Shown here: positions 3,000 to 11,841 of the stretch, in pieces
Numbering within the stretch: position 1 is the first letter of the stretch
Layout: the number at the start of each line of letters is the position of its first letter
Assembly (NCBI RefSeq): GCF_021134715.1
Contig: NC_060025.1
Location: forward strand, 186,001 to 250,000
Source of the DNA: Daphnia pulex
Taxonomy: Eukaryota; Arthropoda; Branchiopoda; Diplostraca; Daphniidae
Direction of reading: 5' to 3'
Length of the DNA stretch: 64,000 nt
Position numbers and translations under genes: made by a program
Notes under the pieces: generated by a model
The model's database searches: none
What the model was told of the DNA's origin: nothing
Seen by the model: only the letters and a program-made list of their open reading frames with translations

Positions 3000-4620
3000 C
3001 AGCATTCTCTCGTCGGTTTTCAGTTTCACGGAGTCCATGATCAGTAGTGAAGGATTACCCTGTAAGCAGAACCAACATTTAATCTGGATGACAATAATTT
3101 TCAATAAGACTGTAGCGACAAAAAGCAATACCTCAAATCAAGAGGGACTATGTAAGGAGCTTATTAGGGAGATTCAAGGGTAGCAGCCATTAGGTTAGCA
3201 AACTAGGGACCTTGACACCTTGTTGACTTTTCTGAAAGAACATAACTTTTCATAAAGTCTGTCATGCAAATTTAGGAACCTGAAGGTGAGAACCTGTAAA
3301 TAAAAAAATAAAAAAATGTTTTAAAAATAAGTAAAAGAATAATTAAACAGTTTTAAGTATATACTCACGCAATATTTTTCTCGCCAAAATCACCATCTCG
3401 TCCAAGGAAACGCCATCACACATCGCGAACATCCAAAAATCTAAAGGGTAAAACTCCGTGCTATGTTAACAGCAGGGTAGTAGAAGCAGATTGGGTAGTC
3501 GAATGATGCTTAAAAGATGTTCATGTAGGCCGCATCTTCTCGGTCATTACCTAAATGCTTAAATCAAGAAACAAAATGTAAACAAAATTTAAATTTAGTG
3601 ACATGACAATGAAGTTACACAGGTAACACCAATCAGCTTTCCTAAGCAATCCAGAAGATGGAATGAGTCAAGTTCGATGACAGAACGAATGATCCGCGTT
3701 CAACGTGTGGTAATTGCCTTGTTTTGGAGTGACAACAAGACATTTGGTCTTATAGACCATATCTAAATAAGAAACAAAACAATCGTTAAAATTGCTATTA
3801 GTATGACAATTTCTCTAAATTCAATGTAAACATAACTTATAATGATGATAGCATGATCACAATATTTAACCTCTTTTTTGTTGTTGACAAATAGGGAGAT
3901 TCAAGGGTAGCAGCCAATAACGGGTTAGCAAACAAGGAATCTTGTTGACTGTGAGTCCTTTATCTTGAAAGGAAATAACTTCTCATAAAGTCAGTCATGC
4001 CAATTTAGAAACCTGTAAATAAAACAAAAATTCATATTAGACTGCAATTAATAAAGTTCAGTAACATGACAAGTGAACTTACACATCAAACCACCAATCA
4101 GTTATCAAAGATTCTCTAGAAGACGGAATGAGAGTCCATGTTGGGGTCGGTGATCTAGCAAGTTCAATATAAACAGCCAATATAATTAAGATTAATCCTA
4201 ATGAAACATGAGAACAATATATGTTTTAGCATGAAATAAAGCTAGTGTTGGTTTTTACCTGTATCATTTCGATGACACATTCAGTAGAATACAATGAGTT
4301 TGAACAGAATAGTTGACGGTGGCTACACGACTTTCACGTTTCCTCTGACTGTAAGTTGATGAAAAACATTAAGGTTATCCAATAACATATACACGGAATA
4401 GATTAATAGAGCACATCACCGACAAGTTGCACACGAAATCACTCGAGTTTACCTATGAATTCAATGGTAATTTTCGAAGCTAGCTTAACGTTGACTGTTG
4501 ACTCCTCTTCTCACGTTCTGCTGACGATCGAATAAGCAAAGAAAATTTCGCGTTTTGGTGGCAAGAAAAGGTAATTTTTGCATGTAGTTCCATATTTGAC
4601 CGCTAGATGGCGTTGCGGTG
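3000..4620 (-). pseudogene. Tandem, decayed unit of an unrecognised multicopy family (locus A)
   Basis: Several blocks recur here and at 22745-23760. A block around 3365-3560 shares ACTCCGTGCTATGTTAACAG-like sequence and TTGGGTAGTCGAATGATGCT with 22800-22900. Blocks beginning GATTCAAGGGTAGCAGCC occur at about 3171 and 3897 and match 23128. Blocks at 3600-3668 and 4062-4138 (CCAATCAG, then GGAATGAG) repeat each other. On the minus strand the 3365 block ends in a GTGAGTAT donor, as does its relative at 22757, so these look like exons of a minus-strand gene. I found no long open frame and no known domain. The arrangement suggests about one and a half tandem copies. Confidence 0.45.
4600..4614 (+). 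promoter_or_regulatory. CTCF-like motif
   Basis: CCGCTAGATGGCGTT matches 13 of 15 positions of the general animal CTCF core (CCASYAGRKGGCRSY). It lies at the presumed upstream end of the locus A unit. A weaker GGCGGCGCTGCC stands at the equivalent place of locus B, near 23730-23745. Short motifs arise by chance, so this is only a candidate. Confidence 0.25.
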
Positions 4621-5738
4621 GAACTTTTTTTGTTTTGTTTTGAAACTTTTTTTTGTTATGGATTCGGCGTGCCAGTGTTTTATCTACCAGGGTATCTGGA
4701 AAAGAATAATAATTGCGGCTTTTTCAAAAATGATGCAAATTTTGTAATGACCTTTAAATTTTAAAGTAATCATTTGCTTGTTTAACCCTACCTATTGACA
4801 TCACAGTCTATGTGAGGGCAAAAATTGAAAGATGTTAATGAAATCGCCATTATTAAGATTACAATTATGGTTAACAATTTTATTGAAACAGTGACATCAT
4901 ACAAAATTAGTAACAGATTTATAGCAACGCTTGATGATAAATAAAACTGGACAAGAAAACGACTCCACTTATTAACGGGGTTAATATAATTAACAGAAAG
5001 TAAGCTAAAGCAACTATTGCGAACGCATCGTTGATCATAACCTAAAATTTAAAATGAGATCATTCCATTGAAATAACTTTTATTTTTTGAAACCCAGACG
5101 ATCGAGCTCAGCTTGAAAGAGGATGGACCAATTAAATTGTTAATAAAATAATTTTATTCGTTTGGAGTCAGACGTGAACCAAGGATTGAAGAGCCAAGCT
5201 AAACACTAATTAGTTTCTACACCCACAATAAACTTTCAAATGTTAAACGAGGAATACAATCTCATCCTGCGAGCGTATCAAGTTTGTCTAGTTCACTAAA
5301 TGAAACAAATCCGTCTTGGAGACAAAACTAAATATCAGAAATATCCGCTTTAAACATTATTTTCAACAGTAATCCAGATTTCCAGCAGTTCAATTTAATC
5401 TAATACTGATTAGTTTCCACCAATAAATGCTCAACTTTGAACGAGGAAATCTTATTGCTGGTTCGGGTTTCTTAATTTTCACTACATCAGTGCCTGCCTT
5501 TAAATCATTCCAGTGTAATGGATGAAATAGTTATCTTATCTCAATTGAAAAAATATACAAGAAAAAAGGGGGAATTTGACATTACCTGATTACACAAGAC
5601 CTGTGGTTTTGCTCCTTATGGGAGCAAGTTGGGTGACGGGAAGATGATCAAGAGAAATATAAAGTCAGTTAACTATCGGGGGTTATTATTTAGTTTAGCG
5701 TTCAGTCTGAGTGAAAATCTAAGTCGTCTAATAAAATG
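4621..5738. other. AT-rich spacer downstream of TMEM26
   Basis: No gene is visible. A direct repeat of about 60 bases is present: CTAATTAGTTTCTACACCCA with AATAAACTTTCAAATG near 5207-5242 resembles CTGATTAGTTTCCACCAATA near 5405-5440. No canonical minus-strand AATAAA was found just beyond 5739. Confidence 0.4.
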
Positions 5739-6263
5739 TTAGGGGCGAGTGTTGACTTTGATAATGGATGTCCCGTAAGACTTGTAATTATACAAGATGG
5801 CGTTTTCGTCGTACTGAGGAATGTCACGAGATTTGGGCGTGGTCGTGCTCGTCCTGGTGAATTTGGGTTTGAACGTTGTGCTAGCGAAGGCAGACTTAGT
5901 TATTGGTTGCATATGAAAGGCTTTAGTGGACTCGTTCGCCACCTTGATTCTCACTCTCTTGACCCAGTCGACAATCGTGTCTCCTTCCGGAATATCGCGG
6001 GTCGGTGGGCTCTCCGTTTCGGCCAAACGGATCCACCAAGGATCGATTGGAGCCACGGTGACGCCCGGTGGGCCTCGGCTGGGTTTGTGGCTAGCGTTGC
6101 GTCCCACGACTGTCGGACTAGTTGGGACACGAGTGTTCATGAGAGTGGCTTGACTGAAAATGACCAGTCCATCCGGATGGATGGCCGCGTACATAAACAA
6201 AATCGAAAAGCAAAGAATGACTAGGAAAACAAACATGAGGACCATGATGGCGAACAAGCGGCG
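5739..6263 (-). CDS. 174-codon in-frame extension of TMEM26 after a TGA-C stop, or a separate membrane-protein ORF
   Basis: Immediately after the predicted TMEM26 stop (TGA at 6266-6264, next base C) the same frame stays open for 174 codons to a stop at 5739-5741. It starts with two arginines, then a strongly hydrophobic segment (LFAIMVLMFVFLVILCFSI), followed by about 140 polar residues. These include two N-glycosylation sequons (NAS and NES) and Ser/Thr/Pro-rich stretches. The positive residues before the helix fit an inside-to-outside anchor. An ATG inside the helix (AIM-VLMF) could instead start an independent ORF of about 171 codons. A 162-codon frame on the plus strand is its antisense shadow. 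Which explanation holds cannot be decided from sequence alone. Confidence 0.5.
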   Translation of the reverse strand, partial: RRLFAIMVLMFVFLVILCFSILFMYAAIHPDGLVIFSQATLMNTRVPTSPTVVGRNASHKPSRGPPGVTVAPIDPWWIRLAETESPPTRDIPEGDTIVDWVKRVRIKVANESTKAFHMQPITKSAFASTTFKPKFTRTSTTTPKSRDIPQYDENAILYNYKSYGTSIIKVNTRP

Positions 6264-9200
6264 TCACGTCTGCCTGGAAACGGCTTCCAAATGGAATTCA
6301 TCCTCTCTCTCATCTTCACCGCCTAAACTGCAATTGTCCTGCCCGCCTTCGTCGTAGTCAACCGACGGCTCACGTCTACCTTTCCGATATTTAAATACAA
6401 CAACAAAGGTAATAAATAAAACAAAATCGGTTAGTGCCAACGACGCGTGTTCAATCAGCACCAGTTGCGTTGGATATGAAATATAACATGTGAGATGGGC
6501 ACGATGTGATGAATGGGTGATGGACGATTTCGAGTCAATTTTAATTCAATGACTCACTGACCTGCTGCTGCTACCACTGTTGGATTTGCGACTGGGACGA
6601 TTCGATTTGCTGGAACTGCGACTGACTCGCGTGGGACTGCTCAGCTCGCAAAGTTCAAGTTCCTGGAGATTGGATCCTTTGGAAGAACCTGGGATTGGTC
6701 GCCCTAGATCCCTTGGTCGGGCCGCTCCTCTTCGGCTCTCTTGGTCACGGCCATCTCGGCTAGGAGTCATGGCCCGTCCCGGCACCTGAATTTTTTTTCA
6801 ACTGTTTAATCATTCTTTAATTAAATTGCAATTAGTTAATTACTCGTTTCCCGTTGCCTTGCGATTCTCGAGCAGAAGCAGAGGAACCGGTAGAGTATCC
6901 GGTATCCTGGCGTGTCGTGCGCTTTTTGTCTTTCCTATTAATATTACAAAATAACAATTTTTGTAGGTGCACATGTTGAGTGTCTATTTCCTTACGATTG
7001 ATTGGTTGAACATCGACTGGACACTGAACGGTTGGTAGGTGATCTATTGAGTGGCTGCATGGGTACAGCTGCCTTGCGGGGCATTGGAACTGGGCGCCCT
7101 TGACTGGTTCCAGCTCTTGGTTTCGGTGACGGGATGGATCTCACTTCATCGACTGTGCCATAGCGACTGAAATGCGATACAATATAAGAAGATGATTCAA
7201 TAAGATTCATAGGTGAACATTGATACCTGTTGCCTCTTCGCTTTCTGTCTGCATTGAAAGCAGTTGTGGCCTTCTCCCTGGAATATTCCAGTTCGGGGGA
7301 ACTCTGCGATTCGACGTCATCGTTGACCTCTTCATTGTCGTTATCCTCTTCTTCTAAATTGCTGAGCCTTTCGGCTTCGAAATCCGACTCGATGTCGCCG
7401 ACCTCATCGCAACCTCCTCCCAAGTCGGCACTGAAACACGTCGACCGATCCGGACTGGAATCGATTTCCACCGACATTTCCGCCGTCACACTCAAATCGC
7501 CTGTCGATAATGACCGTCGTCTTCCCTGTGACAATACAAGAAAGTTCAATAACCCCAGATTTGATTTAAAAAGATGTTAATATTATTATTCTACCCTGGA
7601 ATATTGTCTCCATGACGTGTCGTTTTCGGTGTGAAGGAGAAAAGCGCCACTGTGGGCGGGACTTGGATAGACGGCGGCTCCATCGTCCTCGGAAGCCGTG
7701 CGCACTAATTTAGCCACGGCCCGTTTCGGCGGCAATTTCGAACCGCGGCTACCGCCGCTAACAGAACCGGGATTAACTTTGACGATCCTAGTACCGCGCA
7801 GATTTCGAGTCGAATCAACTCCGCCACCACCTGGAGAAGTGCCTCGCTTCTTGCTGGCATTGCTCGACAGTTGTTTGCCCGTCATCATTTCCCCTTGCTT
7901 GCTCGATTTGAATCCTTTGCGCTTTTCGGCGTGGACGACAATCAGCCGGTAGAACTGAAGAGTAATGACCAAGGTATTCTGTCAATAAGCCAAACGGTAT
8001 GTGATTATAAATTGCAGATCATTATTATATTGATGAAACGTATATACCTTGCAAGTGAAAAAAATGTTGGTTTCGCTGATAATTTTGTAGTGCAGAATCA
8101 GCAACAATCGAAAGATGAAAAAAGGGGCATCTTGCAAAATGATATTGATGAGGATGGACCAGACGTCGACGGAACAACAGACGTTTTTGGCCGTGTGGCA
8201 ACAGTTGTGTTTCTTTTCTTTCACCCGGACTTTGGCTTTCTTGGTTTTAGTCGGACTGGCCGTCAAGACCATGGTAAACTGAAGCAAACTCCACGACCAA
8301 ATGGCTAGGATAATGATACACAACACACGATTGCTGGCCACTTTATCGTCCTGCACGAGAGAAAAGATTCAATTATATTACCATTAGAATTCATTTTAAA
8401 ATAGAGAATCAACCTTGAACGAGTCGAAAAACTCGATAATGTCCGCTGCCGTTCCAATGTAAACCAACAGTAGCTGAGATAGTTGATCCCTTGTCAGATC
8501 ACCTTTTGGTAACAGCCACCGCCCAATGATGAGGATGAGCATCAGAAGCTGCTGGATGACGGTGGCCCATCTTTCTGCCGACAATGCTAAAGGAATCTTG
8601 ACACCCTGAAAAATAATGGCATGTGTAACATCACTAATAATGTGGCGGGTGTCAAACTCTACTGAAAATATACTTACAGCAATATCCGTGGAATTTGAAA
8701 GCTCCTCCGTGGTGCCATTCAACACCGACACCGATACATTAAGCCCTTCACGTTCTTCGAGTCGTTTGTCTAATTTGTCGAACTCGAGAAGCCAAATGGA
8801 CGGCACAACACTCGACAAGTAAAGAAAAACACTCGGGCAAAACCTTGAAAATAAATATTAACTTTTAAATAATAATGAACACTTGCATTTCCAATGTTAT
8901 CAGCAGTTCGTTTCGTTTGTAATCTTAAACTTCGTGGTTTCCTTTTGTAAAACTAAACGAAAGCAGACGACATTCTAACGTGCTTAAAAGTAATCCGATA
9001 GAAACAATTAAAAATCGACTAAGTTCTAAACCGCTTAAAAGTGGTTATGTTGGATGAATAAAATTTCTTTTGCGCTAGCTACTTAAACTTAGTCTGGGAA
9101 AGTGCGCTGACCAAATAAAACATGCGGAATAAATCTAAGTTAGATGAGCAGCAGCCTAGACGTCGTCTGCGCTTCCTTAATGAGTGCGACTTTCTTGGCC

Positions 9201-11841
9201 AAATCTCTTTTGCACTGAATGCTGTATAGTTGATTTTTCTCTAGGCAGTAGTACTATATAACAGCCAATATAAGCCATGCATCCAATTCCTATAATTTAT
9301 GGCCTCGCGTAATGTAATGACATAAATTCGGAGGAGAGCCGGAAATGGGCACGGCGAAGCTTGTTGGTTGGCGGTCGTCAGAAATGGGAAACTAGCGACA
9401 AGATCGATTCGCCTTTTTTGACGATCGACTGAATGACAGATAACGGCAAGTCACTCAGCCAAGTAAAGGAGAGAAAGCGCCGCATATCCGCGATGCTGAT
9501 TCAGTCTGAAAAATCTCGCAAACTCGGCAAAACTCAGCCAATGCTCTTGTCAAGCCTTGTTGTGCGGCTTCTTCGGGAGGGTGACAATACAGTCTGTGTA
9601 CAATAAGCATTACATGATCCCCGTAAAAAGGAAAAACAACTACACCAGATAAAGAAGATGAACGTCAACAACAGCAACAAAACATGTCCAACATTTTAGT
9701 AATATTAATTTACTATCGACGACGTGAATTTCAATCAAAACATGAACCGGAATAAATTAAACTATTATACATGTTACTATCAAAATAAAACTTGTCTTCG
9801 TAGGCCAACAGCTGTTTTTAAAATTCAATTTGTGAAATTTACAATAAAAGACCCTGAATATCATTTCGTCGTTCCAACATTTGCCAAGTAACCACACAAG
9901 ACGCTTTCTAAATGCATGGGTAGGCTCTACTACTTTAACACGGATCCTTTTTACGTCTTCTGTATATGTAATCGATACCTATAGTTTGCGGATTAGTTTC
10001 CTTGTTTACATTAGACCCAAAAAACGCGCAGTTTGGAACTGAATAACACAAAACAAACAACAGTGGAATATTTCGGGATTATTGATCCCGATTCAAAAGA
10101 GAATATCTGTAAAAGTATTAAGTTTGAAACTTGCAAAAATACTCTTTGACATTGTGGATGACAATAACAACGGAGCAGCCCCAAACCACTAAGAAAATAG
10201 AATCTTGATCAAGTGCCTTTATCGACTGAGAGATGCCGAAGTCGTAAAAAAGAAAACAGGAAAAATGATAAGAGCCGCCACGCGCCATTCAAGTTGATGG
10301 ACCTTATTCAATGGCGGGTATATACTACGCCAGCACAGCTCTGCTGCTGCTGCGAATGAAAAATAATCGAATGTTTTTCTTTATTTTTTTCTGATCGCTC
10401 TATATAGCACCACTCCCGTATATAACGTCTTGGGAGGAAACTCGTCCTACATAGAGCTGTTCGTTACTCTAAGTGGTGGCTTTCAGTTGTAGTTATATCA
10501 AGTTACTCTGCGATAAATTGTCTCCTGCAGACCTTTACACTGAAATCAATTTCTATTTAGTACTACTACTTTAGTCGATTGTATTTTACTTTGTCGACTT
10601 TTAGTATAAGCGGTTGACGACGTTGATCATTTGTTTGTTTCATCACGTTCAATGGCGGAATACGTCAAATCTTTAATTAGATGCGCCGTGGAAACTGGAA
10701 TGCAAATTCGCAAATTCAAAATTATTTCCTTTTCAAAGCTTCTTAAATACGTCTCAATTTTAATTGAAGAAAGTGGACCGAAAACAAAGTAATGAAATGC
10801 TAAATAAAATGAAATAACAGCCACACAAAATGAAATCAAGCAAATTGGATTGCCGCTAAGGTACGTATATCCCGTCAATAAAGATTGGGAGAGAATAAGA
10901 CGACGATGTTACGGCAACTTGGCTTTTCCCTCCTATAGGCTTGGATGACAGATAAACAATGATCATATATTATATCGCTAGCTCAAAGAATGTTTTTATT
11001 TTCCAACAGCGACTACGCGCGGTGGAACACTATAAAAGATTGCATTTCCCTCCAATTGGACATCATTCCTGCATATATAAAGATGGAGGGAATCTATACA
11101 CAAGACGAGCTAGTACATGTCTATGATGGATTGATGTGTGACGCCTCTAACGCCGCCCACGCCACCGCCCAAGTCAGTACATCTATAACTCTATTCAAGG
11201 TATCATATTCAAGACTATCTCTATTTTTGGCAAGCGAAATTCGATCTAGTCTTCTTGTTTTCCCCCTCATTTGACAGGAGGTATTTGGAGGCGCATTCCT
11301 GCCCGAAGCTAGACTCATAATCAACACTGACAGATGACCCGGATAAAAGCTGAGAGACTGGAACGACGACGAGCCAAAAGGGTTGACTTTGCTCATCGCA
11401 TTCCTGCGATGTTTATAGTTGTTGACGCGATGGAACGCCAATTGAAATGCTTATTATTATCAAAATACGAAACTGCAGAGTTCACAAAGTGTCTAGCTCG
11501 TTATCAAATCCAAGAGGAATGTGGTAACAAACCAATGAGATAATATATAAATTGAATACGCACCATCTCCATTCCTGGTTGGCTTTGATAGTCAGTGTGA
11601 ATATTCCCTCGAAGGCGAGTACCAGCAGCGAGATCGACAGGTACCAATAGGCAGGATCTTCCTTGATGGTCGTCACTCTCCATATTGCTGCGAACGCAAA
11701 AGAAATAAGAGAACAAACAATATCAAGACGGAGAATTTGATTTAGAAATGATCCGCGATATTAATACTAACCTATAAATCCGTGGCCAGCAAAAATGAGA
11801 CGTGTCAAAATAGCTTTGAGAACGTCCACAACTTTGCCCAT
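6264..11841 (-). CDS. Tmem26: TMEM26 family multi-pass membrane protein, 11 coding exons
   Basis: Coding exons (high to low): 11841-11772, 11687-11564, 8843-8678, 8605-8414, 8350-8048, 7978-7595, 7525-7227, 7166-6996, 6934-6844, 6785-6562, 6375-6264. All junctions are GT-AG and keep phase, giving about 711 residues. The first 300 residues align by eye with vertebrate TMEM26: MGKVVDVLKAILTRL at the start, VPSIWLLEF, IIGRWLLP followed by TRDQLSQLLL, GTAADIIEF, IWSWSLLQF, ILQDAPFF and LQFYRLIVVHAEK. A loop at residues 98-118 has sequons NVS, NGT and NST, as expected for an exposed loop. The remaining 410 residues form a cytoplasmic-looking tail with an acidic patch, a proline motif RPVPMPRK and a Ser/Arg-rich end; human TMEM26 is only about 370 residues in all. 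The family's biochemical role is not established. Reading through the last intron instead ends the protein at SVSH (stop 6546-6548). A 5' UTR acceptor (TTTTTTAG) lies at 11896. Confidence 0.92.
8944..9045 (+). repeat. Dispersed repeat, copy 1 (inside TMEM26 intron 2)
   Basis: Carries AACGAAAGCAGACGACATTC, then ATTAAAAATCGACTAAG, then TAAACCGCTTAAAAGTG. The same ordered blocks occur at 18361-18495 and 47715-47830, all on the plus strand. No inverted ends or coding frame are visible, so the class is unknown. Confidence 0.6.
9046..11563. other. Large second intron of TMEM26 (8844-11563)
   Basis: This 2.7 kb intron is far longer than the other TMEM26 introns (58-186 bases). Apart from the repeat at 8944-9045 I see no RNA gene or nested coding gene. 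A minus-strand frame at 10627-10878 is hydrophobic but resembles no known protein. Confidence 0.5.

Follow-up and report, generated by a model that had tools for sequence, protein, structure and literature searches.

Does the TMEM26 protein of Daphnia pulex end at its first stop codon? The question arises because this stop is a TGA followed by C, and because the same reading frame stays open well beyond it. It is addressed here in a 64,000-nucleotide stretch of the genome (the window; RefSeq assembly GCF_021134715.1, contig NC_060025.1, positions 186,001 to 250,000). The reading that best accommodates the comparison with related proteins, at a probability of roughly 0.72, is functional translational readthrough of the UGA-C stop in Daphnia TMEM26, which would generate a minor isoform carrying an extra membrane helix and a glycosylatable ectodomain.

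The gene is encoded on the minus strand (the initial annotation had given no strand). Its model, assembled exon by exon, has GT-AG at every junction and keeps its frame throughout:

5739..11841, minus strand: TMEM26 gene, 11 coding exons, the last one holding the TGA and the extension
11841-11772, 11687-11564, 8843-8678 and 8605-8414, minus strand: TMEM26 exons 1-4
8350-8048, 7978-7595, 7525-7227 and 7166-6996, minus strand: TMEM26 exons 5-8
6934-6844, 6785-6562 and 6375-5739, minus strand: TMEM26 exons 9-11

The first ORF consists of 711 codons specifying a TMEM26 protein with a long charged tail; codon 712 is the TGA. The 711-residue product is identical to isoform X2 of D. pulicaria LOC124349488 at 710 of 711 positions. 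Its residues 5-296 match the TMEM26 family, PF09772, with an E value of 4.7e-103 and a score of 345 bits (the curated cut-off is 22.2) and cover nearly the whole family profile (positions 2-285 of 285). In contrast, the extension of the window gene has no Pfam match at E 0.001, and in this respect the gene is unlike its family. Both Tmem26 matches in the whole genome fall at this locus. A search of solved structures with D. pulicaria TMEM26 gave no matching chain at E 1.

Elsewhere in the window, a near-perfect inverted repeat at 2188-2677, with 167-nt arms (2188-2354 and 2511-2677, 98% complementary) and a second, inner pair (2353-2414 and 2437-2498, 84%), looks like a palindromic mobile element. 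Diverged direct repeats at 3233-4132 (3233-3282 with 3966-4015, 88%; 3627-3667 with 4092-4132, 73%) suggest an old local duplication.

The stop codon, and the frame that continues behind it in the last exon, are laid out as follows:

6264..6266 (read 6266-6264), minus strand: first stop codon, TGA, then C (TGA CGC)
5742..6263, minus strand: in-frame extension after the TGA, 174 codons, defined by its frame and by protein matches
6243..6245, minus strand: first in-frame ATG after the TGA, 18 nt downstream of it
5739..5741, minus strand: second stop codon, TAA

Ahead of the TGA the exon sequence reads ...GGEDEREDEFHLEAVSRQT, and the extension begins with RRLFAIMVLMFVFLVILCFSILFMYAAI. The initial annotation, which had proposed readthrough here, described the sequence correctly in every item checked: C comes directly after the TGA that ends TMEM26, another 174 open codons lead to the TAA at 5741-5739, and the extension opens with Arg-Arg and a hydrophobic helix, behind which come two N-glycosylation sequons (NAS and NES). 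Chance alone leaves the extension free of in-frame stops in 97 of 20,000 dinucleotide shuffles (0.5%), and, among the window's 6098 runs from stop to stop, 7 have a length of 174 codons or more; it is on account of its conservation that the extension amounts to far more than chance. Scored by a codon usage measure trained on the first ORF, the extension reaches 0.103 in its own frame, with the other five frames ranging from -0.112 to 0.026 and the first ORF on itself reaching 0.169. The opposite strand has a 169-codon open frame of its own (stop to stop, 5715-6224, plus strand) overlapping the extension; it is probably a by-product of the minus-strand coding sequence.

Used as a query, the extension matches 15 database proteins, and a profile search recovers the same 15 and 8 more. 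The most distant of these 23 is 32% identical. They include proteins of D. pulex itself (P0002, DAPPUDRAFT_323051), D. magna (P0004, OUZ56_015219) and D. galeata (P0009). P0002 is 99% identical to the extension in the window; this older D. pulex model differs from positions 5742-6263 by one extra codon (IPDGRDT in place of IPEGDT) that leaves the frame intact. In the whole genome the extension has one match.

Comparison of D. pulex with D. magna places the strongest conservation at the start of the extension. Over the extension as a whole, 118 of 165 aligned residues are identical; over its residues 7-33, which begin at the first Met and make up the helix stretch, all 27 of 27 are. The corresponding figures for the first ORF are 283/296 in the TMEM26 domain and 307/363 in the middle of the tail, and in the last 38 residues ahead of the stop 22 of 31 residues are identical. 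Thus, the start of the extension is better kept than the undisputed coding sequence directly upstream of the stop (27/27 as against 22/31). The persistence of the downstream frame in close relatives, on which the initial annotation had staked its proposal, is borne out in D. magna, D. galeata and others (a search of this type reveals species that have kept the frame and cannot reveal species that have lost it). Judged at the protein level, the ORF downstream of the stop appears to be under selection as a protein.

The stop is shared as well. A search that took the full protein as its query but scored the C-terminal part, covering 7392 candidates under length limits that a fused protein would have satisfied, yields two full-length matches: isoform X2 of D. 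pulicaria LOC124349488 (713 aa) and isoform X1 of D. magna LOC116926122 (700 aa). Both models end at the TGA codon of the window (P0017, D. pulicaria, with ...EAVSRQT; P0018, D. magna, with ...EATARQT), and the extension is absent from both. The first stop accordingly occupies the same position in D. pulex, D. pulicaria and D. magna (what is known for D. magna is a stop, the codon being taken from the protein model only). So the stop and the frame downstream of it both outlived the separation of the pulex and magna lineages. Because both models end at this codon, a sequencing error, or a mutation private to this assembly, is unlikely; an error or polymorphism at the TGA was one of the alternatives that the initial annotation had listed.

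Some relatives bear on the link between the extension and TMEM26. Three of the 23 database proteins (P0005, P0020 and P0026) cross the stop site in one open frame, and all three have Trp there. In P0005, which is 67% identical, the whole TMEM26 tail encoded by the last exon is aligned with one single-residue gap, and the sequence across the site is SRQT-W-RRWFAIMVLM (the window has SRQT-stop-RRLFAIMVLM). P0020 (43-48% identical) has five residues ahead of the site, MARQA-W-RRRFAIIVLM. P0026 (31-32%) has 34, of which only the last few line up: SPQS-W-RRGLAVVVLI. Tail and extension are clearly joined in one protein in P0005, as far as its database sequence tells, and likely so in P0020 and P0026. 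The six codons that separate the TGA from the next ATG, RRLFAI in the window, provide a further measure: 5 of 6 residues are equal in P0005 (RRWFAI), 5 of 6 in P0020 (RRRFAI) and 3 of 6 in P0026 (RRGLAV), a comparison of six codons and of protein sequences only. That these residues are largely kept is hard to explain if they are not translated.

The Trp of the relatives can be read in two ways. The plain reading is an ancestral TGG, one base away from TGA; the other is a TGA translated with a genetic code in which this codon means Trp. One such code, code 4, is sometimes applied when genes are called on metagenome contigs. If the relatives carry a TGA that was translated in this way, the TGA would be conserved over a wider range, and this would support readthrough even more. 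Outside the D. magna/D. pulex/D. galeata clade the tree has 15 proteins; 3 of these extend across the site and the other 12 begin beyond it, which fits either reading (the start point of the 12 says little about a stop upstream). Scans of viral contigs (7 stretches matching the pattern) and of genome contigs (85) with the extension profile gave no DNA of the relatives.

In the tree, one branch (96/94; 98% of bootstrap trees) splits the two stop-labelled rows, D. pulex and D. magna, from the three Trp rows; 98 and 110 of 500 label shuffles (about a fifth) do equally well, the root is a midpoint root, and long branches meet in the tree. Such a one-branch division of stop from Trp would fit a single change at the base of Daphnia. 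It is possible, with the odds somewhat against it, that the ancestral Daphnia TMEM26 was continuous, with Trp (TGG) at the site, that a single change to TGA became fixed at the root of Daphnia, and that this TGA persisted through the pulex-magna split as a translational switch deciding, molecule by molecule, on the presence of the outer domain. Decoding of the UGA would then restore the Trp.

The shared stop, the conserved extension and the frame continuity of P0005 (weaker in P0020 and P0026) together support the proposal of stop-codon readthrough at the TMEM26 TGA, and we infer that readthrough occurs, at a rate that would leave its product in the minority. Most ribosomes would halt at the UGA, and the multi-pass protein that they release would have 711 residues, its long tail lying in the cytoplasm. 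Some would accept a near-cognate tRNA at the UGA and then translate 174 further codons; to judge by the relatives, the residue inserted would most likely be Trp. According to the available part of Jungreis et al. (2016, PMC5100048), readthrough candidates in flies and mosquitoes typically have TGA followed by C, and D. pulex is among the species in which readthrough is abundant. Section 12 of the same source lists an 8-mer, CAGCAGCA, as enriched around fly readthrough stops. It has a counterpart in the TMEM26 message:

6563..6570, minus strand: CAGCAGCA, 118 nt upstream of the TGA after splicing, found nowhere else in the coding sequence

This single copy is a weak pointer to readthrough. The RNA after the stop shows no notable folding (z -0.60), and thus none that would mark structure-stimulated readthrough. 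By titles and the openings of abstracts, searches of the literature on TMEM26 in arthropods or together with readthrough, and on the gene labels of the locus, found no report of TMEM26 readthrough, and a search on stop codon readthrough and Daphnia matched papers on insect selenoproteins and annelid neuropeptides only; among the matches listed for Daphnia and ribosome profiling, none is by title a Daphnia profiling study.

Readthrough has to be weighed against other ways of accounting for an open frame behind a stop. The extension might be an independent protein that starts at the ATG at 6245, made either from a shorter transcript of its own or, after reinitiation, from a dicistronic TMEM26 message. 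That Met lies 18 nt past the TGA, its surroundings favour initiation (A at -3, G at +4), a separate protein begins there in the published models P0002 (D. pulex) and P0004 (D. magna), and a small single-pass signal-anchor protein could conceivably stand alone. On the other hand, these start points are choices made by gene predictors and may mark nothing more than the first Met after a stop. P0005 runs in frame from the TMEM26 tail across the site, as P0020 and P0026 also cross it, and reinitiation leaves unexplained why RRLFAI, ahead of the ATG, is largely kept (as RRWFAI and RRRFAI, less so as RRGLAV). Reinitiation after an ORF of 711 codons is, moreover, inefficient in animals. An independent protein is on these grounds unlikely. 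The P0005 sequence also bears on alternative splicing that would remove the TGA and join tail to extension, since P0005 retains as protein what would have to be intron. The best-looking site for such an event is an acceptor within the codons for the helix (tttgttttcctag, 15 of 19 pyrimidines, exon start 6220). The partner that suits it best, a weak donor at 6319, shares its frame and would define a 99-nt intron. A loose filter passes 88 in-frame donor/acceptor pairs that remove the TGA, most of them with poor sites, and the acceptor at 6220 is the only one with at least 13 of 19 pyrimidines. However, this acceptor and the exon-10 donor differ in phase (1 versus 2) and would not join in frame, the 6319/6220 intron would truncate the helix, and neither full-length match (D. 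pulicaria, D. magna) has the extension. Splicing around the stop is accordingly very improbable.

The remaining explanations concern the TGA itself. A-to-I editing of the RNA would convert UGA to UGI, to be read as Trp, which is exactly the residue found in the three relatives. Folding predicts a hairpin with an outer stem of 10 bp, in which the A of the UGA is matched with a U lying 26 nt downstream; the probability of this pair is 0.96, 0.39 and 0.83 in three folded stretches. (The predicted hairpin is located at 6229-6273 on the minus strand, and its outer stem takes in the TGA itself.) The hairpin keeps editing alive, but only weakly: it is short, the region's folding energy is unremarkable (z -0.65; -0.62, 0.81, 1.48), and ADAR enzymes disfavour G on the 5' side. 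The chance that editing accounts for the locus is slighter still than that of splicing. A nonsense mutation, a polymorphism or a sequencing error in a formerly continuous gene, with no functional readthrough, would agree with the Trp of the relatives, which fits a single change of TGG to TGA. Against this, the models of D. pulicaria and D. magna end at this very codon, and yet the extension has stayed conserved from D. pulex to D. magna; a relic that is not translated would have decayed. A gene broken in this way ranks a little below even editing. As to selenocysteine, an in-frame UGA with a conserved continuation is what a selenoprotein gene would present, but the three relatives have Trp, not Cys, at the site, and Rfam models find no SECIS family match in 4600-6600, which reaches up to 1.1 kb past the second stop. 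The likelihood that this UGA codes for selenocysteine is negligible.

Readthrough, the preferred explanation, would change what the TMEM26 tail leads to. The features of the added part are these:

6180..6260, minus strand: membrane helix, extension residues 2-28, from the AlphaFold2 helix and from hydropathy
6090..6098, minus strand: N-glycosylation sequon NAS
5928..5936, minus strand: N-glycosylation sequon NES

AlphaFold2 predicts the helix with mean pLDDT values of 88, 93 and 77 in the first three blocks of ten residues of the extension; nearly everything past the helix is of low confidence, and mean pLDDT is 46.1. The hydropathy peak of the helix, 3.15, is the highest of the whole protein (computed with Trp at the stop). 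A sequon is found at about the place of NES in 20 of 24 sequences, a count that includes the window's own sequence and several near-copies; P0019, P0021, P0023 and P0026 have none at that place. The C-terminus of the extension has a conserved YNY motif. The added part would place Arg-Arg on the cytoplasmic side, cross the membrane once and end, on the outer or luminal side, in an N-glycosylatable domain that is, by the structure prediction, probably disordered. Readthrough had been proposed to turn a soluble tail into a membrane-anchored ectodomain. A further helix and an outside domain would indeed be added to a cytoplasmic tail, but the host is not soluble, since TMEM26 is itself a multi-pass protein. 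The outer domain may be an anchoring or binding tail carried by a fraction of TMEM26 only.

The conserved readthrough genes of Pancrustacea (Drosophila, Anopheles), as far as the available part of Jungreis et al. (2016, PMC5100048) describes them, resemble Daphnia TMEM26 in having TGA followed by C, a conserved stop with a conserved downstream frame, and a long first ORF. TMEM26 differs from them in its Trp (or TGA written as Trp) in three relatives, in showing no conserved stem-loop, and in its long extension, which is very conserved at the start; according to section 13 of that source, readthrough extensions usually diverge faster than first ORFs, and the TMEM26 extension runs counter to this at its start. 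In Drosophila, ribosome profiling identified eight readthrough extensions with a predicted transmembrane domain, CG33523 among them (Dunn et al. 2013, PMC3840789, in its available part). As in those extensions, readthrough would add a membrane helix to TMEM26, so the kind of effect is already known from flies; the host, unlike theirs, is multi-pass, and the present case is built entirely on comparison, theirs on ribosome profiling. TMEM26 is a strong new candidate for readthrough, an event of a kind already known.

The claim that readthrough is abundant in crustaceans goes back, in the same part of Jungreis et al. (2016, PMC5100048), to a genome-wide estimate for D. pulex, the only crustacean tested. 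TMEM26 would give this estimate a concrete gene, as a single case that is strong, long and open to testing and that concerns both a membrane helix and a glycosylatable domain. If the relatives really carry TGG, it would also show how a readthrough switch can originate within a continuous protein instead of in what was once a 3' UTR.
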